Shown here in pieces: positions 47,403-64,000 of a stretch of DNA of 64,000 bases (position 1 is its first letter; each line of letters starts with the position of its first letter). Both the position numbers and the translations under genes were made by a program. Source of the DNA: Hyphomicrobiales bacterium. Its GTDB lineage: Bacteria > Pseudomonadota > Alphaproteobacteria > Rhizobiales > Rhizobiaceae. The notes beneath the pieces are model-generated. The model did no database searches. It was not told where the DNA came from and saw only the letters and a program-made list of their open reading frames with translations. The stretch covers positions 1 to 64,000 of the forward strand of contig JAPLOZ010000025.1 of NCBI GenBank assembly GCA_026400435.1. Direction: 5' to 3'.

Positions 47403-49475
47403 ATGTCTCTGAGAGTTCGGGTCGGAGTTGATGTCGGAGGGACTTTTACCGACTTTGTGCTGCTTGCCGGCGACGGTTCGACCCGCACACTGAAGATTCC
47501 ATCAACGCCAGGCCAGCCCGAGCGCGCCGTCGTCGAGGGCATTGGCACGCTGCTCGCGCGGGACGACATCAGTCCGGATTCCGTTTCTGAAGTCCTGCAC
47601 GGCACGACGGTCGGATCGAATACGCTGCTGCAGAAGACCGGAGCGCGCTGCGGGCTCATAACCACCGCAGGTTTCCGAGACGTGCTGGAGATTGGCCGGG
47701 TGCGGACGCCGAACATGTTCGATCTGTCCTGGCGAAAACCCGAGCCGCTTGTGCCGCGCCGCTGGCGCCTGGAGGTCAGGGAACGCATCGCCGCAGACGG
47801 CTCGGTTCTGGAACCGCTCGATACGCAAGGAGTCCTCGAAGCAGGCAAAGCGCTTGTGGGGCACGGCATCGAGTCGATCGCGATCTGCTTCCTCAATTCC
47901 TACGTCAATCCCGTACACGAGCAGGCGGCCGCGCGTGTACTTGCCGAAGCCTTTGAAGACATAGCGGTGACAGCCTCGGTCGATGTTCTTCCGTCGATGG
48001 GCGAGTACGAACGCTGCTCGACGACTGTGGTGAACGCCTACGTTATTCCTGCGTTGCGCGGATATCTCAGGCGGCTCGGACAAGGCTTGCGCGAGATCGG
48101 CATCGACGCGCCGCTCCTGATAGGCAATTCCAATGGTGGCCTGTCGACCGCGGAAGTGGCGCAGACGAAGCCGGTGTTCTTTATCACCTCCGGTCGTGCA
48201 TCTGGTGCCGTGGGCGCCGCGCGGCTCGGCACGAGCATCGGAACCCCCGACCTGATCGCCTTCGACATGGGCGGCACGACGGCGTCGGCCACCATGGTGC
48301 GCGGCGGCGACGTCAGCCGCACGCATGAGTATGAATTCCGCGACGGCATCTCGACGCCCAGCCGGTTCATCAAGGCTGGTGGCTACATGATGCGCGTCCC
48401 GACGGTAGACGTGGCCGAGGTTGGCAGCGGAGCCGGCTCGATCGCCTCGCTTGACGAAGGCGGCCTGTTGCGGGTCGGCCCGGTCTCGGCCGGCGCGCTG
48501 CCCGGCCCGGCCTGCTACGGCCTCGGCGGCGACAGGCCCACGGTGACCGACGCCAATGTCGCGCTCGGCCTGCTACCGATGGTGCTGGGCGGCGGCACAC
48601 TGCATCTCGACCGCGAGGCGGCGCAGGCAGCGATCGTGCGTCACGTCGGCGAACCCGCTGGTCTCGGCCTGGACGACGCGGCGCAGGGCATCCGCGACGT
48701 GGTGAATGCCAACATGGCGCGCGCTATTCGCGCCGTCACGGTGGAGCGTGGCCTTGACCCGCGCGACTTCATGCTGCTCGCCTTCGGAGGGTCCGGGCCA
48801 GTGCACGCTTGCGATGTTGCAGCGTCGCTAGGCATGAAGCGCGTGCTGTTTCCGGCGGCACCCGGCGTCTTCACCGCGGCCGGAATGCTGGCCGGACGGT
48901 TGGAGCATCATTTCCTGCGCCCGTTCGGAGGCTATCTGGACCTGCTCGATCCGCGGGCGCTGGCCGCGACCCGCCGCGACATGGAAGCGGTCGCCCGTAC
49001 GGCCTTCGGCGCAGAAGGCCACAGCGCAGCTGCGGTCGACTTTGCTTTCTCGCTCGACATGCGCTTTCAAGGTCAGGAGGCGTCGCTGCCCGTCCAGCTT
49101 CACGCCACGCCGGAAGCCGCTGCGCTGCGCTGCGCCTTCCTCGATGCTTACCGTGAGACCTACGGCTACGTCTCGGATGACCGTGTGGAGATCGTTGCGA
49201 TCCGGCTTGCCGCAACGCTTGCCGACGGTCAGGTGCTCGACTTCTCGGCAATGCGTCGCGCCGACACGGCTGGGGTTGTTGAACGGCATATCCGGCGTGC
49301 CCATTTCGGACGGAAGGCAGGTTGGATAGACGCTCCGGTGATGACCCGGGCAGCAATAGTCGACGCCACCACAGGCCCGCTTATCCTGGAGAGCGACGAT
49401 TGCACCATCGTCATTCCGGTAGGGGCAATGGCAGAGCCGGACGCCACCGGTAATCTGCTGGTCACGCTCGCTTGA
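47403..49475 (+). CDS. hyuA: Hydantoinase/oxoprolinase HyuA-family subunit
   Basis: 690 residues. The ATPase domain starts VRVGVDVGGTFTDFVLLAGD and has DLIAFDMGGTTASATMVRGG as second phosphate loop; EYRDGISTP-like EFRDGISTPSRFIKAGGYMM and VDVAEVGSGAGSIASLDEGG follow. HyuA pairs with HyuB for ATP-dependent opening of 5-membered cyclic ureides or lactams (N-methylhydantoin, 5-oxoproline). The ATG at 47403 lies 10 bp before nothing else and is followed by hyuB 10 bp after the stop. The real substrate is unknown. Confidence 0.93.
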   Translation: MSLRVRVGVDVGGTFTDFVLLAGDGSTRTLKIPSTPGQPERAVVEGIGTLLARDDISPDSVSEVLHGTTVGSNTLLQKTGARCGLITTAGFRDVLEIGRVRTPNMFDLSWRKPEPLVPRRWRLEVRERIAADGSVLEPLDTQGVLEAGKALVGHGIESIAICFLNSYVNPVHEQAAARVLAEAFEDIAVTASVDVLPSMGEYERCSTTVVNAYVIPALRGYLRRLGQGLREIGIDAPLLIGNSNGGLSTAEVAQTKPVFFITSGRASGAVGAARLGTSIGTPDLIAFDMGGTTASATMVRGGDVSRTHEYEFRDGISTPSRFIKAGGYMMRVPTVDVAEVGSGAGSIASLDEGGLLRVGPVSAGALPGPACYGLGGDRPTVTDANVALGLLPMVLGGGTLHLDREAAQAAIVRHVGEPAGLGLDDAAQGIRDVVNANMARAIRAVTVERGLDPRDFMLLAFGGSGPVHACDVAASLGMKRVLFPAAPGVFTAAGMLAGRLEHHFLRPFGGYLDLLDPRALAATRRDMEAVARTAFGAEGHSAAAVDFAFSLDMRFQGQEASLPVQLHATPEAAALRCAFLDAYRETYGYVSDDRVEIVAIRLAATLADGQVLDFSAMRRADTAGVVERHIRRAHFGRKAGWIDAPVMTRAAIVDATTGPLILESDDCTIVIPVGAMAEPDATGNLLVTLA

Positions 49476-49485
49476 GGACGCCGAC

Positions 49486-51135
49486 ATGACCCACAGTGCC
49501 TTCGACCCCATTACGTTCGCGGTCTTGAAGAACGCGCTCGATACCATCGTTGACGACATGGCCTACGCCGTGATGCGAACGGCGCGTTCGCCGATCGTGC
49601 GCGACGTGCTCGACTATTCCGTCACCATCTGCGACCGCCACGGTCGCATCCTCTCGCAGGCCAAGACCGTCGCGTTGCACCTCGGCGCCGTGCCGGATGC
49701 CATGGAAGTGCTCATGGAACGCTTCGCGCACAATCTGGCGCTGGGTGACGTCGTGGTCCTCAACGACCCTTATGCCGGCGGCATGCACCTTCCCGACATC
49801 TTCATGTTCAAGCCGGTGTTCTTCGAAGGGGCGCTCTGCGGCTTCACGGTGGTGATCGCCCATCACTGCGATGTCGGCGGCCGCGTGCCCGGTTCCAACG
49901 CCAGCGACTCCACCGAGATATTCCAGGAAGGGTTGCGCATTCCGCCGATGAAACTCTTCGAGGGCGGACGGCGCAACGAGACGCTGTTTGCGCTGATCCG
50001 CGCCAACGTGCGGCTGCCCGACCTCGTGCTCGGCGACCTCGACGCCCAGCACGCGACCTGCTCTCTGGGAGAGCGCGACCTGCTGCGGCTCTTCGAGCGC
50101 TACGGGCAGACGGAACTGGAAAGCTATTTCGACCGGCTGATCGATTATGGAGAGGCACTGACCCGCAAGGCGATTGCCTCATGGCCTGACGGAAGCTACA
50201 GCTTCAAGGACTATATCGACGGTGACGGCTTCTCGCCGGATCCCATCCCGATCTGTTGCACGCTGACCGTCGATGGCGACCATCTCCACGCCGACTTCAC
50301 TGGTTCGTCGCCGCAGGTTCGCGGCGCGATCAATTCGACCTTTTCCTTCGTCAAGTCATCGACCTATCTCACCGTGCGTTGCATGCTCGATCATGAAGTG
50401 CCGAACAATGCCGGCGTCTACCGGTGCATCACGGTGACCGCGCCCGAGGGTTCGATCCTCAATCCCAGGATGCCGGCGCCGGTCGCCGCCCGCGCCCTTA
50501 CTGGCTACCGCGTTGTCGACACGGTGATGGGCGCGTTGGCGCAGATCGTGCCACTCAAGGTGATGGCAGCCGGCGAAGGCGGCAATACAGTCGTTGCCAT
50601 CGGCGGTTATCAGGGCGAGGAGCGCGAGCCCTTTATCCTGGTCGACATGATCAACGGCGCCTGGGGCGGGCGCGCGGACCAGGATGGCATCGAGGGCGTG
50701 ACCAACCCGTCGCAGAACATGTCCAACCTGCCGATCGAGACTCTGGAGGCGCGCTATCCGATACGGGTCGAGTCCTACGGCCTGCGGAAAGACTCCGGCG
50801 GCGCCGGCAAGTATCGCGGCGGGCTTGGACTGACGCGGTCCTATCGCCTGCTGGCCGACGAGGCCGTGCTTCAGTTGCGCGCCGACCGCACCGACCATCC
50901 GCCCTACGGCCTGTTTGGCGGCATGCCCGGCGCGCCGTCGCGCAACTACATCGCGGAGCCCGGCAGCGAGTTGAAGCCTTTGCCGGGCAAGACCACCCTG
51001 AACATCACCAAGGGCACGCTGATCCGTCACGATCAGGCGGGCGGCGGCGGCTACGGCCCGCCGCAGGAGCGCGACATCCAACGCATCCTGGACGACATCG
51101 CCGATGACAAGATATCCGCGCCCGGCGCGTCATGA
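49486..51135 (+). CDS. hyuB: Hydantoinase B-family subunit
   Basis: 549 residues. Opens DPITFAVLKNALDTIVDDMA then YAVMRTARSPIVRDVLDYSV; has NDPYAGGMHLPDIFMFKPVF, DVGGRVPGSNASDSTEIFQE, GSSPQVRGAINSTFSF and MPAPVAARALTGYRVVDTVM, family landmarks of the HyuB/oxoprolinase beta subunit. It forms the amidohydrolase part of the ATP-dependent complex. Ten bp after hyuA; converges on the frameshifted SDR. Confidence 0.93.
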   Translation: MTHSAFDPITFAVLKNALDTIVDDMAYAVMRTARSPIVRDVLDYSVTICDRHGRILSQAKTVALHLGAVPDAMEVLMERFAHNLALGDVVVLNDPYAGGMHLPDIFMFKPVFFEGALCGFTVVIAHHCDVGGRVPGSNASDSTEIFQEGLRIPPMKLFEGGRRNETLFALIRANVRLPDLVLGDLDAQHATCSLGERDLLRLFERYGQTELESYFDRLIDYGEALTRKAIASWPDGSYSFKDYIDGDGFSPDPIPICCTLTVDGDHLHADFTGSSPQVRGAINSTFSFVKSSTYLTVRCMLDHEVPNNAGVYRCITVTAPEGSILNPRMPAPVAARALTGYRVVDTVMGALAQIVPLKVMAAGEGGNTVVAIGGYQGEEREPFILVDMINGAWGGRADQDGIEGVTNPSQNMSNLPIETLEARYPIRVESYGLRKDSGGAGKYRGGLGLTRSYRLLADEAVLQLRADRTDHPPYGLFGGMPGAPSRNYIAEPGSELKPLPGKTTLNITKGTLIRHDQAGGGGYGPPQERDIQRILDDIADDKISAPGAS

Positions 51136-51256: not shown

Positions 51257-52029
51257 TCAGCCCGCCATCCAGCCGCCGTCCACCATCAGGTTGATCCCTG
51301 TGACGTAGCTTGCCATGTCGCTGGCAAGGAAGAGTGCGGCTCCGGCGACGTCATTGGGGTGCCCGAGCCGTGGCCAGGGCGTGCGACGGTGTGAATAGTC
51401 GAGCGCGCCGGGTCGTTGGCAACGCCAGGCTTGCCGGTGATGATCTTGCCGGGTGCGATGGCATTGCAAATGATCAGGTCTTCGGCGTGGTCGACGGCGA
51501 TCTGGCGCGTCATCTGAACAATGGCCCCCTTGCTTACCGAATAGGGAAAATCGCCGGGGCAGGCGACCATGCCGTGCTGCGAGGAGATGTTGATGATTCG
51601 ACCGCGAGCCTCGTTGACCGGCGCCTGGGCGAGCATCTGGATCACCGCCCGTTTCGAGCAGTAGAAGAAGCCTGTCAGGTTGACGCTCATAACGAGATGC
51701 CACTGTTCGGACGTTGTGTCGATCAGATTGGTGCTGGTGTAGATCGCGGCATTGTTGACCATAACGTCGAGCCGCCCGAACAGCTTCACCGTCTCACCGA
51801 CCAGGGTATCGACGGCGCTCCAGTCCGCGATGTCTGTTCTCACGTTAGCAGCAGTTCCGCCGGCCGAGCGGATCAACTCCAAGGTACTCTGATCGCCCTC
51901 GATCGGCTGCTCCACCGTGTCGGCTATGACGACATTAGCGCCCTCGGCCGCAAATTTCAGCGCGATCGCGCGGCCGATGCCGGAACTGCCTCCCGTGACG
52001 ATGGCGGTTTTGTTGGCGAGCAGGTGCAT
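51257..52029 (-). pseudogene. SDR-family oxidoreductase, frameshifted near the C-terminus
   Basis: ATG 52029 opens [28 protein letters not shown], catalytic [15 protein letters not shown] and YSVSKGA are present. After GVANDPAR (about 51404) homology switches frame to [20 protein letters not shown], then [20 protein letters not shown] with VDGGWMAG to a stop at 51257. Total length is 3n+2; one missing C in GCGCGC-TCGAC would restore the frame. Last gene of the leftward ureide operon, 5 bp after the amidohydrolase stop-side gene. In the broken form it ends as a 247-residue protein with a wrong tail. Confidence 0.88.
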
Positions 52030-52034
52030 GGCCC

Positions 52035-53369
52035 TCAGCTTTCCCGGGTGACGACGTGTCCAACTTTCGTGCCGATCAGTTCTCCCTCATGCACGATCTC
52101 GCGACCGCGCAGGAAGACGTTTGTCAGCCGCCAGCCGACAGTCCAGCCGTCGAATGGCGTGTAGCCCGCGCGCGACACCTGGTCGGCATTGGCGATCGTG
52201 CTGGACTGGCGCGGGTCGAGGATGAGGATATCGGCATCGTAGCCAACCGCGAGCTTGCCTTTGCGACGGCCGAGGCCGAAACGCTGCGCTGGATTGCTGG
52301 CGCACATGCGCACCAGGTCGGGCAGGGCGATGAGTCCTTCGTCGACCAGTTTCAGCATCGCCTGCAGCAGCGTCTGCAGCCCTGGCAAGCCGCCCGGAAT
52401 GTCGGCGAAGGCCGCATAGGGTGCTGCCTTTTCGGCTGGCGTGTGCGGCGCGTGGTCAGTGGCGACGATGTCGATCAGTCCTGCGCGCAGCGCGGTGCGC
52501 AGCGCTGCCACATCAAGCGGCGAGCGCAGGGGCGGAGAGGCCTTCAGATTGGCGCCTTGGAGCTCATAATCGCCGGCCGTGAAGAAGAGGTTCTGCGGCG
52601 TGGTTTCGACGCTGGCGTCGGCCATGCCGCGCAGCCGGCTCCACGTCTCGACGCCGAGTTCGGAATTGATCTGCCGCACATGGATCCTGGCCTGGGCCGA
52701 GGCGGCGGCGATGAGCGCCCGGGCGATGCCGATTGCTTCGGCCAGCGGCGGCCGACTCGCCTCAAAGGCTGCGATGGTGCCGGTGCGGTCGCGCATTGCG
52801 CTGTGGGCCAGCATCGATTGATCGCCAGGCGAGATGCCGATCAAAGTGTCGCTGCCGGCGAAAGCGTTCAACGCCTCGGCCACGACGTCGGGCCCAGCAA
52901 ACAGGAAGTCATCGGGCACATCGGCGGTGAACAACTCGAACGAGACCGGTGCGAGATCGAGCAGGCCCGGGATCAGCGACAGGTTGCGGCTGATCACTGT
53001 CTGGAAGCCGACATCGACATGGATGCGGGCCTCGGTCATCGCCATCTTGTCGGCAAGCTGTTCGGCCGTGGCCGTCCATGGCTCGTCGGTAGGCATGTCG
53101 AGCACCGTCGTCACGCCGCCCAGGGCCGCGGCATGCGTGCCGGAGGAAAAGTCCTCCTTGTGGGTCAGGCCAGGGTCGCGCAGATGCGCATGCGCGTCGA
53201 CCAGGCCGGGCAGCAGATAGGCACCGGCGGCATCGAAAACCCTCCGGGCCGAAGCCGTCTCGCCGGGAGCGACAAGGGCTGCGATGCGGCCGTCGGTGAT
53301 GCCTACATCGCGGCGATCCAAACCTTGGCCGTTGACGATGGTAGCACCCCGGATCAGCGTTTCGAACAT
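52035..53369 (-). CDS. Dihydroorotase/allantoinase-like cyclic amidohydrolase
   Basis: 444 residues from ATG 53369. Amidohydrolase metal motif GLVDAHAHLRDPGLTHKEDF (HxH), DMPTDEPWTATAEQL, ARIHVRQINSELGVETWSRL, and IVATDHAPHTPAEKAAPYAA (catalytic Asp). Where hydantoinases and allantoinases carry the carboxylated lysine (GFKxF), this protein reads PVSFELFTADVPDDF, with no Lys, closer to lysine-less dihydroorotase types. It likely opens a cyclic ureide, but which one is unknown. It is next to a PuuE-type gene, 22 bp apart. Confidence 0.87.
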   Translation of the reverse strand: MFETLIRGATIVNGQGLDRRDVGITDGRIAALVAPGETASARRVFDAAGAYLLPGLVDAHAHLRDPGLTHKEDFSSGTHAAALGGVTTVLDMPTDEPWTATAEQLADKMAMTEARIHVDVGFQTVISRNLSLIPGLLDLAPVSFELFTADVPDDFLFAGPDVVAEALNAFAGSDTLIGISPGDQSMLAHSAMRDRTGTIAAFEASRPPLAEAIGIARALIAAASAQARIHVRQINSELGVETWSRLRGMADASVETTPQNLFFTAGDYELQGANLKASPPLRSPLDVAALRTALRAGLIDIVATDHAPHTPAEKAAPYAAFADIPGGLPGLQTLLQAMLKLVDEGLIALPDLVRMCASNPAQRFGLGRRKGKLAVGYDADILILDPRQSSTIANADQVSRAGYTPFDGWTVGWRLTNVFLRGREIVHEGELIGTKVGHVVTRES

Positions 53370-53391
53370 GCCGCCATTCTCTTTGAGGGTG

Positions 53392-54324
53392 TCAGTCGCG
53401 CCGCTCGAAGCCGGCATGATTTTCCAGCCAGAACCGGGCAATGGCTTCGCGGCGCATGAAGGCAGCAGCCGGATTCTGCTTCACGTGCTCGATCACCGCG
53501 CGCAGCCCGGACGCCCGGTTGGGTTGGCCCATCCAGCGCGCGTGGATGCCGATCGTCAGCATGCGCCCGCCGGTCTCGCCGGCCTCGTCCAGCATGTAGT
53601 CGATCGCCGAGCGGCAATCCTCGGCGAAGTCGCTCGGATTGCTGTAGCCCGGCGCGACCAGGTAGCGGCTGTTGTTGAGCGTCTTGGAATAGGGCACGAC
53701 CAGGATCTCTGTCCCACCATGGTCGAGGAAATAGGGCAGGTCGTCATTGCAGGGATCGGAGTGGTAGAGGAAGCCGCCTTCCTCGACGAGCAGATCGCGC
53801 GTGTTGACGCTTGGCAGAGAGCGGCAGTTCCAGCCCAACGGGCGCGTTCCAAGCAGCCTCTCGTAGAGGGCCACCGCCTCGTGCAGATGGCGCTTTTCCT
53901 CGTTGCGCTCCGTCGTCGAATAATCGATCCAGCGCAGGCCGTGACCGAGCAGGTCATGCTGACGCGCCTTCATCCATTTGACGAAGGGCGGGTTGCGCTC
54001 CAATGCCACCGCGCAAGCGGAGATGGTGATCGGGATGTCGTAGCGATCGAAGAGCCGTGCCAGGCGCCAGACACCGGCACGGCTGCCATATTCGAAATGC
54101 GTCTCGGTGCCAAGGTCACGCACCGGCGGGCTCGAGGTGAGATTGTATTCGCCCCAATTATCGTTGCGGCCGTCTTCCAGCCACGAATACTCCGAGCCCT
54201 CCTCGTAGTTGAGCACGAGGTTGATGGCGAGCTTTACGTCGCCCGGCCAGGTCACGATGGGCGGACGTGGACCATAGCCGACGAAGTCGCGCGGTTGCTT
54301 CGCTTGCTGCTGATCGGTCGGCAT
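53392..54324 (-). CDS. PuuE-type polysaccharide deacetylase-family protein (allantoinase-like)
   Basis: 310 residues. RDFVGYGPRPPIVTWPGDVK opens the family-specific region; ALNYEEGSE-type VLNYEEGSEYSWLEDG, EYGSRAGVWRLARLFDRYDI, LLGHGLRWIDYSTTERNEEK and GWNCRSLPSVNTRDLLVEEG follow a NodB-like barrel. PuuE proteins are cofactor-light allantoinases unrelated to AllB. Its presence next to an amidohydrolase suggests two different ring-opening activities or successive steps. Substrate inferred, not known. Confidence 0.9.
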   Translation of the reverse strand: MPTDQQQAKQPRDFVGYGPRPPIVTWPGDVKLAINLVLNYEEGSEYSWLEDGRNDNWGEYNLTSSPPVRDLGTETHFEYGSRAGVWRLARLFDRYDIPITISACAVALERNPPFVKWMKARQHDLLGHGLRWIDYSTTERNEEKRHLHEAVALYERLLGTRPLGWNCRSLPSVNTRDLLVEEGGFLYHSDPCNDDLPYFLDHGGTEILVVPYSKTLNNSRYLVAPGYSNPSDFAEDCRSAIDYMLDEAGETGGRMLTIGIHARWMGQPNRASGLRAVIEHVKQNPAAAFMRREAIARFWLENHAGFERRD

Positions 54325-54349: not shown

Positions 54350-55372
54350 TCAGTTTTCGTTGGCTGATATCCAGTCCATGTAGGCGTGGAACGCTTCCTT
54401 GCCGGGACGCGGCCGCCATCTGGTGTCGCGCAGGATGCGGGCGATGTCATACGCGCCCCACATGCCGCCTTGCAGTATCACATCCTGGACGATGTTGGCG
54501 TCTTCACCTGACGTCACTTCGGCCTTCAGTCCGGGCACGCGTTCCCTTGCCCAGCCGATGATCTCACCGATCGTCTGGCTAGAACCGGAGCCGATGTTGT
54601 AGTGACGATAATTGAGCACCGGTGCATCAATCAGCGCGATGACTGCGTCGGCAACGTCGGTCGAAACGACATAGTCGCCGGCCGGGTCCAGGCTGTTCGG
54701 GCTGATCGTCTCGCCGGCCAGGGCCATGTGCGCGACGCGGTTGGGAACATGGCGAAAGTTGCGGCTCTCGGTCGCGCGGTCCATCGGGCCGTAGACAGAA
54801 GCGAGCCGCACCGAGACCGCCGGCAGACCGAACAGGTCGGCATAGCGGTTGGTCACCATCTCTGCGGCGAATTTCGAGATTCCGTAGAGCGTCAGCGGCG
54901 CGACATAGCCGTCTTCCGGTAGCGGCTCGCCGCTCCAGTCAGGCCCATTGTGACGGTAGACGGAACCGGAACTGACATAAACGAAGCGCTTGAGGCCTGG
55001 TGTCGCGCGCGCCCAGTCCAGCATGCGCACGGTGCCCATGAGATTGACGTTGACGATGCGGGCAGGATCTTCAGCCTCCGGCTGCCGTTTTGCCTCCGAT
55101 GCGCTACCGCGCGCAATCGGCGTGATCGTCGCGCCATGCACGATTGCCGTGATGCCTTGCTGGTCGAGGGTCGCGCCCCAGGTATTCGGGTCGAGGATAT
55201 CGGCGGTGATCACTGTGAGCCGGTCGCGCACCGGGGCGAAATGCTTTTCGGCCGCCGCGTCTAGGCCGGACCGGTCCAGGATCACGGCGCGGGCTTGCGG
55301 GTCACGGTCGAGCCATGCGCGTGCGACCACGCTCATGACAAAACCTGTCCCTCCAGTGACGAGCAGCGTCAT
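54350..55372 (-). CDS. NAD-dependent epimerase/dehydratase-family protein
   Basis: 340 residues from ATG 55372. Extended SDR: LLVTGGTGFVMSVVARAWLD (Gly-x-x-Gly-x-x-Met rather than the usual third Gly), ITADILDPNTWG, VHGATITPIARG, FVYVSSGSVYRHNG, catalytic LTLYGISKFAAE (Tyr-x3-Lys). Nucleotide-sugar epimerases and related dehydrogenases share this fold; no sugar nucleotide signature was recognised. In the leftward ureide operon between the SDR at 55403 and PuuE. Confidence 0.88.
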   Translation of the reverse strand: MTLLVTGGTGFVMSVVARAWLDRDPQARAVILDRSGLDAAAEKHFAPVRDRLTVITADILDPNTWGATLDQQGITAIVHGATITPIARGSASEAKRQPEAEDPARIVNVNLMGTVRMLDWARATPGLKRFVYVSSGSVYRHNGPDWSGEPLPEDGYVAPLTLYGISKFAAEMVTNRYADLFGLPAVSVRLASVYGPMDRATESRNFRHVPNRVAHMALAGETISPNSLDPAGDYVVSTDVADAVIALIDAPVLNYRHYNIGSGSSQTIGEIIGWARERVPGLKAEVTSGEDANIVQDVILQGGMWGAYDIARILRDTRWRPRPGKEAFHAYMDWISANEN

Positions 55373-55402: not shown

Positions 55403-56152
55403 TCAGCGCGTCGCATAGCCGCCGTCCACCAGCATGTCGGATCCGGTGACGAAAGATGCATCCGACGACAAAAGGAAGGCTGCCGCCGCCGCGATCTCGT
55501 CCGGCTCTGCAATGCGGCCGAGCAGATGGGCGGGTCCGAGACCTGCATTTGCGGCCTCGTAGTCGGGAAACCTACGCAGCAGGCGCGCTGTCGCAACCGC
55601 GCCTGGTGATAGGCTGTTGACGCGCACCTTGTCCGGCGCATGGTCGACCGCCATCGCCTTCGCGAGATGGATCAGCCCGGCTTTGGCTGCGCAATAGGCG
55701 ACGGCCCTGGAGGTCGCTACCCGTCCGAACTGCGAGCCGATGAATACCACCGAGCCGCCGCCACCGGCCGCAATCAAAGGCACCGCGAACTTGCTCATCA
55801 GGAACGCGCCGGTCAGACTGACGTCGAGTTCGCGGCGCCATGAATGTTCGTCGAGATCGACGACGTTCGCGTTGGTCGATGGCGCGGCCGCGTTGTGCAC
55901 CAGTCCGTCCAGTCGGCCGAAGCGCTGCCTTGCGATGCCCACGGCGCCGCAGGCGGAAGCTGCATCGGTCACATCGCAGTGGCAGGCCGCCGCAGCGGCG
56001 CCGAGCCCGTCGGCAAGTGCTTGTGCCGCCGCAAGCTCCTGGTCGGCGCAGACCACGCTTGCGCCTTCTGCAACGCAGCGCCGGGCAATGGCGGCGCCAA
56101 TGCCGCTTGCGGCGCCCGCGATCAGGACAACACTGCCATCGAGCCGGTTCAT
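55403..56152 (-). CDS. SDR-family oxidoreductase
   Basis: 249 residues from ATG 56152; upstream residues have no SDR character. VVLIAGAASGIGAAIARRCV, CDVTDAASA, LVHNAAAPSTNANV, FIGSQFGRVATSRA (Ser), YCAAKAGLIHLAKAM (Tyr-x3-Lys), VNSLSPGAVATARL and DMLVDGGYATR complete the classical SDR layout. It precedes the epimerase by 30 bp. Substrate unknown; a NAD(P)-dependent alcohol oxidation in ureide breakdown is plausible. Confidence 0.9.
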   Translation of the reverse strand: MNRLDGSVVLIAGAASGIGAAIARRCVAEGASVVCADQELAAAQALADGLGAAAAACHCDVTDAASACGAVGIARQRFGRLDGLVHNAAAPSTNANVVDLDEHSWRRELDVSLTGAFLMSKFAVPLIAAGGGGSVVFIGSQFGRVATSRAVAYCAAKAGLIHLAKAMAVDHAPDKVRVNSLSPGAVATARLLRRFPDYEAANAGLGPAHLLGRIAEPDEIAAAAAFLLSSDASFVTGSDMLVDGGYATR

Positions 56153-56162
56153 CGCGGCAACC

Positions 56163-57404
56163 TCAAACCCGTTCCTCGACACGTTGCATGACCGGCGCGC
56201 GCAGAAGATTGAAAGTGGCCGCCAACGTGACCAGGGCCGCTCCGCCGCCGAGCAGCAGGAACATGGCGGAAGGCCCAAGATGCGTCATCAACCCGGTTGC
56301 AACGCCAGGCGTCGCCACATTGCCGATCGAGTAGAGCAGGAGCAGCGTGCCGGAGGCGGCGACCATGTGCCGGCTATGAAGCTGCGATGCACCGAAGGCC
56401 ATCGCCACCGGATAGATCGTCAGCGCCGTGGCGCCATAGATGAAAAACAGAACGAACAGCAGAGGCACCGACAGGGTGCCGATCCATGCGATGGAAGCGC
56501 AGGCCGCCACCGATATCAGCCCTTGCACCAATAGTATCAGGCGGCGGTCGAACCGGTCCGACAGCCACCCGACCGGGGTCTGCGCCAGCATGCCGGCGAT
56601 GCTTATCGTGGTCACCAGCCAGACGGTGGCCGCCGCCGAAAGGCCGATCTGCGTGCCATAAAGAGGCGTCAGCACGAAGACGTTCATGTTGGTGATGCCG
56701 CCCTGGAAAATCGCGACGACCGTCACCGGCGCCAGCTTAAAGATCGCCAGCGGTCCGAGCCGCCTGTCTGCCTTGGCTCCGGGCGCAAGCGCCGGATCGG
56801 CCGGCACAGAAGGCAGCGCCGGCCAGCGCAGCCCCGCGAACTTGGGCGCAAAAGCCAGAAGCACCGTCGATGTCGCGACCAAGAATAGGTGGGGAGATTG
56901 CGGTCCGACCAGCGCCACCAGGATCTGGCCAAGCAGCACGGCGATCGCCGTCGTCAGCATGTAGATCGAGAACATCGCGCCGCGATTATGCTGTTCGGCA
57001 TAGAGATTGATCCAGCTCTCGCAGATGACGAACATCGAGGCCATCGACATGCCACCGAGTAGCCGGAAGCAGAACCAGGCAGGCATGAAGTCGGTGACGA
57101 CGAAGCCCAAGGCCGACAGCAGCGCGGTTGCTAGGACCAGCAGGAATGTCCGCTCATGGCCGTAGCGGGTCACCAATGGACGCGTCATCAGGCATCCGAT
57201 CAGGAAGCCGGCCGGATAGGCCGTCAGCACGATCTGCACGATTTTGGAGGCGACGCCTGTTTTGCCGAGGTGGAACGATACCGCGGTGGTCAGCATGGCG
57301 CTGCCGATACAGGCGAGACAGACGCTTGCCATCATCGGCAACGTGCCACGGGAGCGCTCGGCGTTCCGCCAAAAGCGCGTTGCGGATTGAACGATCGACC
57401 GCAT
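56163..57404 (-). CDS. MFS transporter
   Basis: 413 residues from ATG 57404 with 12 hydrophobic segments (first SVCLACIGSAMLTTAVSFHL; motif A-like GCLMTRPLVTRYGHERTFLL; second half GWLSDRFDRRLILLVQGLIS). The conserved MFS motif A (G-x-x-x-D/T-R) is visible in both halves. First gene of the leftward ureide operon, 10 bp before the SDR. Probably exports or imports the ureide substrate or product; direction unknown. Confidence 0.9.
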   Translation of the reverse strand: MRSIVQSATRFWRNAERSRGTLPMMASVCLACIGSAMLTTAVSFHLGKTGVASKIVQIVLTAYPAGFLIGCLMTRPLVTRYGHERTFLLVLATALLSALGFVVTDFMPAWFCFRLLGGMSMASMFVICESWINLYAEQHNRGAMFSIYMLTTAIAVLLGQILVALVGPQSPHLFLVATSTVLLAFAPKFAGLRWPALPSVPADPALAPGAKADRRLGPLAIFKLAPVTVVAIFQGGITNMNVFVLTPLYGTQIGLSAAATVWLVTTISIAGMLAQTPVGWLSDRFDRRLILLVQGLISVAACASIAWIGTLSVPLLFVLFFIYGATALTIYPVAMAFGASQLHSRHMVAASGTLLLLYSIGNVATPGVATGLMTHLGPSAMFLLLGGGAALVTLAATFNLLRAPVMQRVEERV

Positions 57405-57720
57405 CAATGAGCCGTCGCTGGCTAGGACGGGCGCCGAACATCGCAAGGATATTCAACAGCAGGCGCCGGATTCTTGTGCATTGCGACGGTTTCCCTTGGC
57501 AGTCACGCTGGCCTGTTGCTGCGGCCGGCGGCTGCTCTCCCAGACATAAGCTACACTCCGATATGCCTGCAGCAAGCGAAGATTGACACGGCTATGGCGT
57601 CATTTTTTTTGGTCATCCCGGCGGCGGAAAACGCCGTTGCGCCGTGCGACAGGCTTTACAGTCCTTTTGTGCGCTCCCTACGATAGGTCCGCCTGCCAGA
57701 GATCGAGAGGATTCCAGGAG
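57405..57720. other. Divergent promoter region of the two ureide operons
   Basis: No gene seen. It separates the MFS-first leftward operon from RidA-first rightward operon. TTGACA at 57583-57588 is a consensus -35, though the matching -10 is poor, and CGGCG-GAAAA-CGCCG at 57622-57636 is a small hairpin or operator. A regulator is not encoded nearby apart from the FCD-GntR at 46563. Confidence 0.5.
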
Positions 57721-60436: not shown

Positions 60437-61744
60437 ATGGGCCTCAGCGAAACCAGCCAGGACACGGCACCGCGCGCGGCCGAACCGCTTTCGCTCGGCG
60501 AGATCGTGGAGAACGGACTCTGCATCGGTTGCGGTCTCTGCTGTTCGATCGCTGACCCAGGCACTGTCGAGATGGTCATGACGCCAGAAGGGCGCGAGCG
60601 GCCGAAGGCGAGGCAGGCGTTGGACAGATCGACATTGGCGAAGATCAACGCCGTCTGCCCGGGAACGCGTATCGCCGGTCCGCCGGCGGCAGCGTTCAAT
60701 GCGGAGTTGACGGACATCGTCTGGGGGCCAGCCGAACGGCTTGTGCTCGGTCGCGCGGGAGATCCCACCGTGCGGTTCGTCGGATCGGGAGGCGGCGTGT
60801 TGACGGCGCTCGGCCAATTCCTGCTGAGTTCCGGGCGCGTCAAGTCCGTGCTGCATGTCGCGGCATCCCGCTCACAGCCGATGCGCAATGAGCGGCGCCT
60901 GAGCTTCGATGCCGCTTCGGTGCTTGAGGGCGCCGGGTCGCGCTATGGCCCCGCCGCGACCCTCCTGGATTTCGGCGACATCCTCGATCGCGGCGAGCCT
61001 TTCGCATTGATCGCCAAGCCCTGCGACATCACCGCCGTGCGAAATTTGGCGCTGCTCGATCCGCGCGTCGACGAATATATGCGCTATGCCCTGGCCTTCG
61101 TCTGCGGCGGCGCATCGGACCTTTCGAAATCGGAACAGGTACTGCAGCGTTTCGGGCTTTGCGAGGACGAGCTCACGTTGTTTCGCTATCGCGGCCATGG
61201 CAATCCCGGCGTCAACCGTATCGAAACCAGGGACCGCCGCGCCTTCGAAATCACCTATCGGCAGTTGTGGGAGGACGAGGACAAATGGATGATCCAGCCG
61301 CGCTGCAAGATCTGTCCGGATGCGATCGGCCAGGTGGCGGATATCGCGGTGCATGACGCTTGGCTGAATGGCGGGCCGGCCGTCGAGAACGAACCGCTCA
61401 ACAGCATCATCGTGCGCTCCGGGCGTGGCCTCGAACTGTTCGACGCGGCGGTCGAGGCCGGCGCTCTGGTGATCAAGCGCGAGACCGACATTGCCGAAAT
61501 CAGCGAGTTGCAGTCCCACCAGGTGCGCAAGCGGCGCGCCGTCTGGGCCCGGTTGAAAGGCATGGAGATCGCCGGGAGGCCGGTGCCTTTTGTCACCGAT
61601 CTCGCCCTTGCAGATTGCGCCGCGCAGAATTCGCTGGCGGAGAATCTGGCCGAGGGGCGCGGTGCCCGCGAGCGTGCGCGGCGCGGGCGCCTGGGCGAGG
61701 CGCCTGCCGTGCCGCGCGAAGGCAAGGGTGGGCAATCATGTTGA
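60437..61744 (+). CDS. Coenzyme F420 hydrogenase/dehydrogenase beta subunit (FrhB) family iron-sulphur flavoprotein
   Basis: 435 residues. Fe-S cysteines in GLCIGCGLCCSIADPG, CPGTR, KPCDITAVRNLALLDPRVDE, FVCGGASDLSKSEQ, and IQPRCKICPDAIGQVADIAV followed by HDAWLNGGPAVENEPLNSII. These are N-terminal and C-terminal FrhB domains with FAD and [4Fe-4S] sites. Family members pass electrons to F420, ferredoxin or other carriers; F420 use in a rhizobium is not expected. 12 bp after the carbamoylase and 13 bp before the oxidase, so part of the same transcript. Confidence 0.9.
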   Translation: MGLSETSQDTAPRAAEPLSLGEIVENGLCIGCGLCCSIADPGTVEMVMTPEGRERPKARQALDRSTLAKINAVCPGTRIAGPPAAAFNAELTDIVWGPAERLVLGRAGDPTVRFVGSGGGVLTALGQFLLSSGRVKSVLHVAASRSQPMRNERRLSFDAASVLEGAGSRYGPAATLLDFGDILDRGEPFALIAKPCDITAVRNLALLDPRVDEYMRYALAFVCGGASDLSKSEQVLQRFGLCEDELTLFRYRGHGNPGVNRIETRDRRAFEITYRQLWEDEDKWMIQPRCKICPDAIGQVADIAVHDAWLNGGPAVENEPLNSIIVRSGRGLELFDAAVEAGALVIKRETDIAEISELQSHQVRKRRAVWARLKGMEIAGRPVPFVTDLALADCAAQNSLAENLAEGRGARERARRGRLGEAPAVPREGKGGQSC

Positions 61745-61757
61745 GGCATGGGTTGAC

Positions 61758-62924
61758 ATGAACGCCGCCGCGGAAACGGACGTCATCATTGTCGGCGGCG
61801 GCATGGCCGGCGCCGGGGCCGCCTTCGAGATTTCCCGCTCCGCAAAGGTGGTGCTGCTTGAGCGGGAAAGCCGTTGCGGCTATCACAGCACCGGACGCTC
61901 GGCGGCGAGCTTCACCGAAAACTACGGCAACGGCATCATCCGTCGTATCGTGCTGGCGAGCCGGTCTTTTCTGACCGAACCGCCGGCCGGCTTTTCCGAA
62001 TATCCGCTGCTTGGCAAGCGCGGCATGATCACCGTGGCCCGCGCCGATCAGCTCGGTCTCCTGCGAGAGGATCTGGCGGCCGCGCAGGCGCTGGTGCCCT
62101 CGATCGTCGCCGTGACGCCGGCCGAAGCGATCGCCCGCGTACCGGTGCTGCGCAAGGACTATCTTGCCGGCGCCTATATTGAACCGCATTCGATGGACAT
62201 CGACGTCAACGGCCTGCACCAGGGCTATCTGCGCGGCGCCCGCGCGCGCGGCGCGCGCATCGTCACCGATGCCGGCGTGACGACGATCGACCGGCACAGC
62301 GGCCAGTGGCGGGTCGAGACGCCGGCGGGGACTTTCCTTGCGCCAATGCTTGTCAATGCGGCCGGCGCCTGGGGCGACGAGGTCGCCGCCATGGCTGGGG
62401 TGCGCCCGGTCGGCCTGCAGCCGAAGCGCCGAACCGCCTTCAACATTCCGGCGCCCGCCGGCGTCGACATATCACAGTGGCCCCTGGTCAATGATGTCGG
62501 CGCCGAATTCTATTTCAAACCCGATGCCGGCCAATTGTTCGTCTCTCCGGCCGATGCCACACCGTCGGTGCCCATGGACGCTTATGCCGAGGACATTGAC
62601 GTCGCCATCGGCGCCGAGCGCCTCGAAAGGGCGACGACAATCGAGGTGCAGCGCGTTTCGCGCTCGTGGGCCGGCTTGCGGACCTTTGTCGCCGACGGGT
62701 CGCCGGTGGTCGGGCCGGATGACGAGGCTCCGGATTTTATCTGGCTGGTCGGGCAGGGGGGCTACGGCATCAAGACCTCGCCGGCGCTGTCGCGTGTCTG
62801 TGCCAGCCTGATCGCCGGCAAGGGTTTTCCGGACGATGTCGCAAGGCAAGGCGTTTCGATGGACGATCTCACGCCACACCGGCTGCGCGGCGTCGATCCT
62901 CAAGCCAGGCAGGCTGCTTCATGA
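61758..62924 (+). CDS. FAD-dependent oxidoreductase of the D-amino-acid oxidase/dehydrogenase (DadA) family
   Basis: 388 residues from ATG 61758. FAD motif DVIIVGGGMAGAGAAFEISR, GRSAASFTENYG, WRVETPAGTFLAPMLVNAAG, and C-terminal RSWAGLRTFVADGSPVVGPD then FIWLVGQGGYGIKTSPALSR. It oxidises an amine or amino acid, feeding electrons perhaps to the FrhB-like protein. It overlaps the next gene by ATGA. Glycine/sarcosine-type versus D-amino-acid specificity cannot be told. Confidence 0.92.
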   Translation: MNAAAETDVIIVGGGMAGAGAAFEISRSAKVVLLERESRCGYHSTGRSAASFTENYGNGIIRRIVLASRSFLTEPPAGFSEYPLLGKRGMITVARADQLGLLREDLAAAQALVPSIVAVTPAEAIARVPVLRKDYLAGAYIEPHSMDIDVNGLHQGYLRGARARGARIVTDAGVTTIDRHSGQWRVETPAGTFLAPMLVNAAGAWGDEVAAMAGVRPVGLQPKRRTAFNIPAPAGVDISQWPLVNDVGAEFYFKPDAGQLFVSPADATPSVPMDAYAEDIDVAIGAERLERATTIEVQRVSRSWAGLRTFVADGSPVVGPDDEAPDFIWLVGQGGYGIKTSPALSRVCASLIAGKGFPDDVARQGVSMDDLTPHRLRGVDPQARQAAS

Positions 62925-64000
62925 GCAATGCCGCGTTGACAGCCGGCGGCAGGCTTGCCGCCAATTTGCTTGAGAGGCTTGCGCAAGCCACGGCTGACCT
63001 TCCGGGCGTGACGCGTGCGGCTTATGGGCCGGGCGAGCGTTTTGCCCATGACCTCATTCGCGACGAAGCCGAGCAGATCGGCGCGAAGGCGCGTGTCGAT
63101 GCCGCGGGCAACCTCTATTTGACGCTGAAGGGCCGCAATCCCGATTTGCCGGCGATCGTTGTCGGTTCGCATCTCGACAGCGTGCCGCATGGCGGCAATT
63201 TCGACGGTGCCGCGGGCGTTTTGGCGGGGCTGGCGGTGATGGCCGAGCTGGTCCGGCAAGGCATCCAATTGCCGCGCGACCTGATCCTGTTCGCGGCGCG
63301 CGCCGAGGAAGCGGTCTGGTTTCCGTTGTCCTACCCCGGCAGCCGGGCCGCGCTCGGCCTGCTGGAGCCGACAGCACTGGAGGCGAAGCGTTCCGACAGT
63401 GGACGCTCTCTGGCTGACCATATGTTGGAGGAGGGCTTCGACCCTGATGCCGTGCGCCGCGGTGCGCCGGGTATCGATGCCGAACAGATCGCGGCTTTCG
63501 TCGAAGTGCATATAGAGCAGGGACCACGCCTGATCGCAGCCGGCGCGCCGGTCGGCATCGTCACCGGGATCGCCGGTGGGTTTCGCCATGTCGATGCGAG
63601 ATGCCTTGGTGCTTATGGCCATTCCGGCGCCGAGCCGCGCTTTGCCCGCCACGACAGCGTGCTCGGCTTTGCCGATCTGGTCGCTGGCCTTGAAGCGGAA
63701 TGGGACGCACTCGAGCGCGACGGGCATGAGGCCACGATCACTTTCGGTCGCGTGGAATCGGATCCGAGCCAGCATGGTGGCAGCCGCGTGCTTGGCGACC
63801 TTCGCTTCACGCTCGATGTGCGCAGCGCCGAGGCCGCGGTGCTGGACCGGATCGAGGCTAAGCTGCACGCGCTTTTCGCAGAAGTGGGCAACAAGCGCGG
63901 CGTCAGTTTCGAGGCTGGGCCAAGGTTCACCTGGGAGCCGGCGACCATGTCGCCGGCGTTGATTGCGAGGCTGGACCGCGCCGCTGCCGAGCTGCGAATT
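62921..64000 (+). CDS. M20-family Zn-dependent amidohydrolase (N-carbamoyl-L-amino-acid hydrolase/allantoate amidohydrolase type), truncated by the window end
   Basis: The first 360 residues. Metal sites: GSHLDSVPHGGNFDGAAGVL (HxD and D), FAARAEEAVWFPLSYPGSRA (EE, where most AllC/HyuC have EEGxRF), FVEVHIEQGPRLIAAGAPVG, then the dimerisation/lid domain with GAYGHSGAEP. It cleaves N-carbamoyl or ureido groups. ATGA overlap with the preceding oxidase. It and the D-carbamoylase would cover both stereo-isomers, or a further ureido cut. Confidence 0.9.
   Translation, partial: MSNAALTAGGRLAANLLERLAQATADLPGVTRAAYGPGERFAHDLIRDEAEQIGAKARVDAAGNLYLTLKGRNPDLPAIVVGSHLDSVPHGGNFDGAAGVLAGLAVMAELVRQGIQLPRDLILFAARAEEAVWFPLSYPGSRAALGLLEPTALEAKRSDSGRSLADHMLEEGFDPDAVRRGAPGIDAEQIAAFVEVHIEQGPRLIAAGAPVGIVTGIAGGFRHVDARCLGAYGHSGAEPRFARHDSVLGFADLVAGLEAEWDALERDGHEATITFGRVESDPSQHGGSRVLGDLRFTLDVRSAEAAVLDRIEAKLHALFAEVGNKRGVSFEAGPRFTWEPATMSPALIARLDRAAAELRI

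Follow-up and report, generated by a model that had tools for sequence, protein, structure and literature searches.

Why should a gene of the FrhB family, a family best known from methane-making microbes, stand in the middle of an operon for hydantoin breakdown? The question is raised by a stretch of 64,000 nucleotides from a soil-type Hyphomicrobiales bacterium (assembly GCA_026400435.1, contig JAPLOZ010000025.1, positions 1 to 64,000), here called the window. On its plus strand seven genes follow each other, coding for a Rid-family protein (RidA), a D-hydantoinase, an N-carbamoyl-D-amino-acid amidohydrolase (D-carbamoylase), the FrhB-family protein, a DauA-like D-amino-acid dehydrogenase (DAO), an M20-family amidohydrolase and an isochorismatase-family protein whose gene lies just outside the window. 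The first-pass annotation had named the first six, and all of them are present, in the order given and closely packed. With the starts of RidA, hydantoinase, carbamoylase and DAO placed at an ATG inside the longer listed frame, 12 bp separate carbamoylase and FrhB and 13 bp FrhB and DAO, hydantoinase and carbamoylase overlap by 16 bp, and both DAO/M20 and M20/isochorismatase overlap by 4 bp; the described spacing of 10–20 bp gaps or overlaps thus stands for all but the RidA–hydantoinase gap of 23 bp. We find that the operon exists and is conserved and that, within the reach of our searches, it has not been described; it is a D-hydantoin catabolic operon of a variant type that carries an exchangeable redox gene. 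FrhB gives the impression of a swappable redox step added to the pathway, not of a core part of it. Our preferred reading of its role, held tentatively and at less than even confidence, is that FrhB was added once together with a divergently transcribed gene module and would act as a non-F420 oxidoreductase on a front-end substrate of the operon.

The arrangement is more than chance because the same gene order recurs in other genomes, as the first-pass annotation had proposed to check. A scan at one genome per species gave 32 loci, 30 named Mesorhizobium and two named Rhizobiales or Hyphomicrobiales bacterium, and 31 of them show the same seven-gene order, flanked by the divergent module on one side and an MttB-family gene on the other; the exception is the damaged locus L030 treated below. 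The window's genome falls in one family with the genus of genome G253, Mesorhizobium. Among the 146 genomes of this genus, a set that overlaps with the 32 loci in membership, 49 carry the carbamoylase at E 1e-118 and 39 carry a FrhB orthologue (at least 75% identity), all of the latter among the 49. Both matches lie on one contig and at most 65 bp apart in 39 of 39 genomes, and a FrhB orthologue occurs in 0 of the 97 genomes without the carbamoylase; G859, G868 and G960 hold only FrhB relatives of 38–42% identity. Ten carbamoylase carriers are without the orthologue, nine of them with a short operon and the tenth, G926, with a replacement. Close carbamoylase relatives were found in one of 385 genomes of a class sample at E 1e-118, the own genome, and in three of 297 of an order sample at 75% identity or more (the own genome, G253 and G235).

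By family, the core enzymes point to a D-hydantoin pathway. The hydantoinase reaches 441.7 bits with the D-hydantoinase model TIGR02033 (cut-off 393.25), and solved D-hydantoinases are its closest solved matches (1nfg, E 1.8e-100). The carbamoylase gives 335 bits to D-carbamoylases and at most 86 bits to beta-ureidopropionases. Its motifs E47, YRK[MI]H and [IL]CNDRRWPE, which we take to hold the Glu-Lys-Cys catalytic triad, are kept in the four sequences checked (E47, YRKMH and ICNDRRWPE in the window copy). The M20 protein scores 210 bits with TIGR01879 (cut-off 204) for the part inside the window, and the full protein (stretch L003) has the N-carbamoyl-L-amino acid hydrolase 3n5f as its best solved relative (E 7e-50).

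The label "DadA-like" once given to the dehydrogenase has to be replaced. Its best solved relative is DauA, a D-arginine dehydrogenase (3nyc, E 5.9e-99), and it stays far under the cut-offs of two NCBIfam D-amino-acid dehydrogenase models (32.9 of 383 and 25.4 of 494 bits). Equivalents of DauA Y53, R222, Y249 and R305 are kept in seven of seven sequences; these are listed among the active-site residues of DauA (PMC11193025). H48 is replaced by S, E87 by M (in all seven sequences) and E246 by A, the last read off the alignment with DauA for the window sequence only. In DauA, E87 and E246 contact the arginine side chain or guanidinium (PMC11193025). D-Arginine is therefore an unlikely substrate, and the replacements lead us to expect a D-amino acid that carries a different side chain. 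Six active-site positions are identical in the seven sequences compared, FrhB-bearing and FrhB-less alike.

From these enzymes we infer a pathway in which the hydantoinase would open the ring of D-configured hydantoins, the carbamoylase would then release the D-amino acid, and the DauA-like dehydrogenase would oxidise this to an imino acid, whose hydrolysis to the 2-oxo acid the Rid protein would aid. The M20 and isochorismatase-family enzymes, and a D-aminoacylase-like neighbour in several Mesorhizobium loci, may serve as further C–N hydrolases. Rid2 and Rid3 proteins deaminate the imine released by DauA and the tested RidA and Rid1 proteins do not (PMC5619798).

By its sequence FrhB is a member of its family. 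It exceeds the cut-offs of both Pfam domains, FrhB_FdhB_C (PF04432, 93.1 bits against 23.3) and FrhB_FdhB_N (PF04422, 52.3 against 22). Eight cysteines, C29, C32, C35 and C74 as well as C196, C223, C290 and C293, show no variation across the 17 rows of a diverse alignment and are all present in 32 of 32 orthologues, a set made up of the window and 31 loci other than L030. The latter four are in register with the F420-dependent FdhB 9t1s in the alignment, and we take them to be the [4Fe-4S] ligands of the reductase domain. Two [4Fe-4S] clusters, one for each group of four cysteines, and flavin adenine dinucleotide (FAD) are predicted as cofactors. The median omega of 0.158, against 0.060–0.127 for the six other operon genes, indicates purifying selection, and FrhB looks functional. 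By profile its best solved relatives are 8riu and 8rja, F420 reductases of ethane-oxidising archaea, and it also matches HCAR (5dqr, E 2.6e-9). HCAR and BciB are F420-free family members with a known role, reductases acting on chlorophylls.

An F420-linked reaction had been considered when the gene was first noticed. The F420 synthesis gene CofD was not found in the own genome (G000, 87.6% complete) nor in four Mesorhizobium genomes (G253 and G822, G823 and G824, the genomes of loci L005, L007 and L023). F420 is therefore an unlikely partner of FrhB here, and we rejected it as a candidate. CofD is present in five of the 23 FrhB carriers searched; the other 18 gave no match, some of these genomes being incomplete.

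Operons without FrhB tell more about what FrhB is not needed for. Nine Mesorhizobium genomes (G856, G860, G872, G896, G911, G918, G958, G960 and G963) carry a short operon, DHDH-DAO-RidA-carbamoylase, which adjoins a peptide-type ABC transporter in seven; the other two lie on short contigs. In the short-operon stretches seen there is no match to hydantoinase, FrhB, M20 or isochorismatase, and G960 holds a 40% FrhB relative on a separate contig. Genome G235, from another family, has hydantoinase (67%), carbamoylase (75%), DAO (68%), M20, isochorismatase-type and RidA genes. An ABC transporter accompanies them, as does a cystathionine-lyase-like gene, and the whole genome is without a FrhB-family match. 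The plasmid pNCHU2750a of Neorhizobium sp. NCHU2750 (CP030828.1, the replicon searched) carries hydantoinase, carbamoylase, M20, isochorismatase-type and RidA genes and no FrhB; no DAO match was found there at E 1e-8 in 28.9 kb, and a gene annotated as dadA lies 4.8 kb beyond the isochorismatase gene. A gene of this plasmid annotated as "cytochrome c2" (L170:6260-6607) is 71% identical to the window RidA and is apparently misannotated.

In the tenth genome, G926, the full operon and the divergent module are present and a 556-aa GMC oxidoreductase stands between carbamoylase and DAO (L221:7662-9332, minus strand). No convincing FrhB remnant was found (best tblastn E 0.25). The GMC protein belongs to the choline dehydrogenase subfamily PRK02106.1 (777 over 605 bits) and stays under the betA equivalog cut-off (689.1 against 732.1 bits); no other match among 138 genomes of the genus exceeds 52%. 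Two trees were read for their topology only. One combined carbamoylase, DAO and RidA from 46 loci, without L030; the other also took in hydantoinase and covered 37 loci. In both, G926 branches inside the group of FrhB-bearing loci, and the window is placed among the Mesorhizobium loci. Since the core occurs with and without FrhB, and with DAO unchanged at six positions of the sequences compared, FrhB is neither needed everywhere for the core nor an obligatory acceptor for DAO.

This bears directly on the earlier proposal that FrhB takes electrons from the amine oxidase, in which electrons of the D-amino acid would pass over Fe-S clusters and FAD to a carrier or quinone. In its favour are the position of FrhB directly ahead of the DAO gene and locus L066, where a FrhB gene overlaps the gene of a FAD_binding_2 dehydrogenase by 4 bp, as well as L064, where FrhB follows two dimethylglycine-dehydrogenase-like genes (by eye). 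PaDADH is a strict dehydrogenase with unknown physiological electron acceptor (PMC11193025), and in the complexes of CODH and Fwd it is the FrhB-type proteins that gather the electrons delivered by a partner oxidoreductase (PMC11493965). It is weakened, however, by the sets of DAO, RidA and carbamoylase without FrhB in G235 and the nine Mesorhizobium genomes, with six DAO positions unchanged in seven of seven sequences, and by the GMC enzyme in the place of FrhB in G926. Moreover, FrhB and DAO distances do not co-vary (partial r -0.31), and a DAO-family match lies within 6 kb of three of 42 other FrhB loci and in one control stretch out of 40, where one DAO query of the two used had itself been taken from one of these FrhB loci. 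We therefore disfavour an acceptor role and consider it quite unlikely.

The same operons count against the suggestion that FrhB reduces a ring, such as a pyrimidine- or unsaturated-hydantoin-like compound, to a form which the hydantoinase can open. The family of the hydantoinase also opens dihydropyrimidines, and the F420-free BciB and HCAR reduce organic substrates. Yet G235 and the Neorhizobium plasmid retain the hydantoinase in operons that lack FrhB, the enzyme acting next resembles D-carbamoylases far more than beta-ureidopropionases, and the GMC family that replaces FrhB in G926 is not known to reduce rings. Ring reduction is thus improbable. We judge it very improbable that FrhB acts as a reductase on the imino acid product of the dehydrogenase, turning D- into L-amino acids with Rid as a competing safety valve. 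A pyrroline-5-carboxylate-reductase gene precedes the FrhB-less short operon in both fully called loci (L216, over the model cut-off; L218, by eye), and FrhB relatives lie beside or near ornithine-cyclodeaminase-family genes (L065 by profile, L069 by eye); against this, FrhB co-varies neither with DAO nor with RidA (partial r -0.34), and the FrhB family is not known to include an imine reductase.

Co-variation leads instead to the divergent module. The divergence of FrhB co-varies with that of the epimerase-like gene (partial r 0.69) and of the cyclic amidohydrolase DHO (0.64), and in the loci seen FrhB, or the GMC enzyme, accompanies this module. Matches to DHO, PuuE and the epimerase are absent from the stretches seen of the short operons, of G235 and of the Neorhizobium plasmid. 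We suggest that FrhB was gained once in the Mesorhizobium-type lineage along with the MFS-SDR-epimerase-PuuE-amidohydrolase module. As a [4Fe-4S]/FAD oxidoreductase independent of F420 it could carry out a substrate-level redox change on a compound supplied by this front-end module, before the hydantoin and carbamoyl steps, and might swap electrons with ferredoxin-like carriers, like its relatives BciB and HCAR. A wider formulation is possible, though we find it doubtful: FrhB would be either the long-missed physiological redox partner of a DauA-type dehydrogenase in this lineage or an F420-free oxidoreductase of small N-heterocycles, in any case the first FrhB enzyme in hydantoin or D-amino-acid breakdown of aerobic bacteria, and replaceable by a GMC enzyme.

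Several points weigh against a front-end role gained with the module. Of the five module genes tested, three do not co-vary with FrhB (MFS, partial r -0.40; SDR, -0.24; PuuE, -0.12), and the co-variation of the other two may stem from recombination blocks. The FrhB-bearing loci trace back to a single gain, which makes the co-occurrence in effect one event; one gain and one replacement make very few independent events. The GMC replacement is seen in one genome and could be a chance insertion, and an equivalence of FrhB and GMC is not obvious, because GMC choline dehydrogenases oxidise alcohols and BciB and HCAR are reductases. FrhB is the fastest evolving of the seven operon genes, and five of the 39 FrhB matches run through a stop, which in the two checked (L226, L227) is the normal C-terminal end. 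AlphaFold gave poor models (mean pLDDT 38.8 with 19 orthologues, 49.3 with five viral-contig relatives and 13 orthologues), and CofD was the only F420 synthesis gene looked for. Beyond the orthologues, neither a D-hydantoinase-type gene nor a D-carbamoylase lies within 6 kb of any of 42 FrhB loci, some of these stretches being cut by contig ends. Finally, locus L030 of M. loti UFLA 01-765 holds an intact FrhB, its omega little changed, beside a damaged carbamoylase with E47 replaced by Q; in the 16 kb seen, upstream of which the contig ends, no hydantoinase, Rid, DAO or divergent-module match was found except a 34% SDR. This pattern suggests a role of FrhB outside the pathway.

The L030 carbamoylase has further lost its stop codon, and its omega of 0.146–0.200 is about twice the usual 0.065–0.081; a transposase-like open reading frame (by eye) lies beside it. 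The single open frame of carbamoylase and FrhB was considered as a Rosetta-stone fusion and rejected, the carbamoylase being without catalytic Glu and stop and its omega raised. That FrhB survives next to a carbamoylase so damaged, and that FrhB relatives occur in many other neighbourhoods, would fit a separate function with no tie to hydantoins, FrhB being simply retained in the operon. This is unlikely in our view, since in Mesorhizobium the FrhB orthologue is never found without a carbamoylase gene, the damaged copy, held by G847, being one of the 39.

Relatives of FrhB are spread thinly, with 14 of 297 genomes in the order sample at E 1e-30 and 23 of 385 in the class sample at E 1e-40, the own genome in both. 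The 42 relatives of 28–52% identity come from other Alphaproteobacteria, one Pseudomonas and plasmids. The first-pass annotation had named unrelated neighbourhoods of FrhB in relatives as a refutation; they are found for these distant relatives (42 of 42 loci) and not for the orthologues of at least 75% identity. Their neighbours are varied: an ATP-dependent-type hydantoinase A gene in L064, aconitase X in L067, an amidase in L070, an aminotransferase, SMP-30 and Rid in L060, and polysaccharide genes in others. Three neighbour tests were set aside. Listed amine/amide genes occurred at 13 of 42 loci against two of 40 controls (p 0.003), a biased and unused figure as several of the queries come from the same loci; Rid alone gave 5/42 against 0/40 (p 0.055), with L059–L061 a single arrangement and two of three queries from these loci; polysaccharide-type neighbours gave 6/42 against 0/40 (p 0.026), with one query from the related locus L073.

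Some further FrhB genes are worth recording. In L103 and L104 (G685 and G764) FrhB adjoins a 2-oxoglutarate/Fe(II)-oxygenase-like gene (by eye), and in L104 it is convergent to a cluster of PuuE-like, M20-type and hydantoin-racemase-like genes (partly by eye), a further N-heterocycle setting. Six IMG/VR viral contigs (L240–L245, e.g. L240:3001-4239) of about 30% GC carry FrhB-family genes, five full-length and 39–41% identical to the window FrhB and one partial, with phage polymerase, RecA/UvsX-like and radical-SAM proteins as neighbours by eye; these are possible phage-borne auxiliary metabolic genes. A phage collection added two relatives at 29%, each from the record of a human faecal phage. 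The own genome has a second FrhB-family gene (L004:8846-10117, minus strand; L004 is G000:C68:26000-45000), 24% identical to the first and beside bacteriochlorophyll- and heme-type open reading frames (by eye), and is probably that of a phototroph with a BciB-like protein.

The features of the region are collected in the table.

Table. Genes of the operon and of the divergent module, with the evidence for their assignment
Feature	Coordinates	Strand	Evidence
Rid-family imine/enamine deaminase, 116 aa	57721..58071	+	TIGR00004 E 3.9e-12, below curated cut-off; weak RutC match
D-hydantoinase / dihydropyrimidinase, 476 aa	58095..59525	+	TIGR02033; 1nfg
N-carbamoyl-D-amino-acid amidohydrolase, 304 aa	59510..60424	+	best solved relative 1fo6, E 2.9e-99
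FrhB-family protein, 435 aa	60437..61744	+	PF04422 and PF04432 over cut-offs
DauA-like FAD D-amino-acid dehydrogenase (DAO), 388 aa	61758..62924	+	3nyc DauA
M20 hydantoinase/carbamoylase-family amidohydrolase	62921..64000, end 64195 outside window	+	TIGR01879
Isochorismatase-family protein, last gene of operon	64192..64866, outside window	+	family assigned by matches
MFS transporter, first gene of divergent module	56163..57446	-	MFS models, all below cut-offs; match in 31/32 loci
SDR oxidoreductase, divergent module	55403..56182	-	match in 31/32 loci
NAD-dependent epimerase/dehydratase-like, divergent module	54350..55372	-	named by eye; match in 31/32 loci
PuuE-like polysaccharide-deacetylase-type protein	53392..54324	-	TIGR03212 E 1.9e-81, below cut-off
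Cyclic amidohydrolase DHO (dihydroorotase/allantoinase type)	52035..53441	-	no model over cut-off among best 25 of 66
Second SDR, divergent module	51286..52029	-	by eye; SDR match of 31-36% there in 31/32 loci

HyuA- and HyuB-like genes (ATP-dependent hydantoinase/oxoprolinase type, by eye) lie at 47403-51135 on the plus strand, with 6.6 kb between them and the operon downstream, so that two distinct hydantoinase systems may be present in the region. Past the window end, on the opposite strand, follow the MttB-family gene (L003:8031-9569, TIGR02369 E 5.1e-91, below cut-off), which stands after the operon in 31 of the 32 loci and near which no corrinoid protein was recognised by eye, a D-2-hydroxyacid dehydrogenase-like gene (NF041369, below cut-off) and, by eye, DapA-like, sarcosine-oxidase-like and MmgE/PrpD genes. 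Prompted by the MttB neighbour, we considered whether FrhB might serve a corrinoid activase and dropped the idea: the activase family PF14574 occurs in 19 of 23 FrhB carriers, a count taken among carriers only, and RamQ, the name of which had prompted the thought, is itself the ATP-dependent corrinoid activase (PMC8604678). A corrinoid-activase-family gene is found elsewhere in the own genome.

The locus offers a small, testable setting with natural controls, as the pathway exists in three forms, FrhB-bearing, FrhB-less and with a GMC enzyme instead, and it bears on the physiological electron acceptor of DauA, an open point in the literature (PMC11193025). Further, FrhB relatives recur at low frequency in Alphaproteobacteria, mostly in carriers without a CofD match. 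A combination of this kind appears to be new: in the open-licence literature, judged on titles and the beginnings of abstracts, no description of the operon was found, and neither FrhB nor an F420 hydrogenase was found together with hydantoinase or hydantoin, in line with the earlier remark that FrhB is not a standard hydantoin gene.

How does the system compare with known ones? With the F420 reductases linked to FrhB, FdhB, CODH or Fwd (8riu, 8rja, 6qgr) the window FrhB shares both Pfam domains along with the reductase-domain cysteines. Unlike in those complexes, no partner-complex genes were recognised around it and CofD was not found in its host; and whereas 8riu has two N-terminal clusters (PMC11493965), four conserved cysteines predict one in the N-terminus of the window protein. 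With BciB and HCAR it has in common the FrhB-type domain and a host without a CofD match, but it stands outside a tetrapyrrole context. As for DauA with Rid2/Rid3 of Pseudomonas aeruginosa (PMC5619798), a DauA-type FAD dehydrogenase is encoded in one operon with a Rid gene; in contrast, no DauB was recognised at the window locus and E87, E246 and H48 are replaced. A parallel of the front half is the route of D-hydantoinase and N-carbamoyl-D-amino-acid amidohydrolase, with which the operon shares a hydantoinase over the TIGR02033 cut-off, an overlapping carbamoylase gene and the catalytic motifs, and to which it adds a DauA-like dehydrogenase, a Rid protein, an M20 enzyme, an isochorismatase-family amidase and FrhB.

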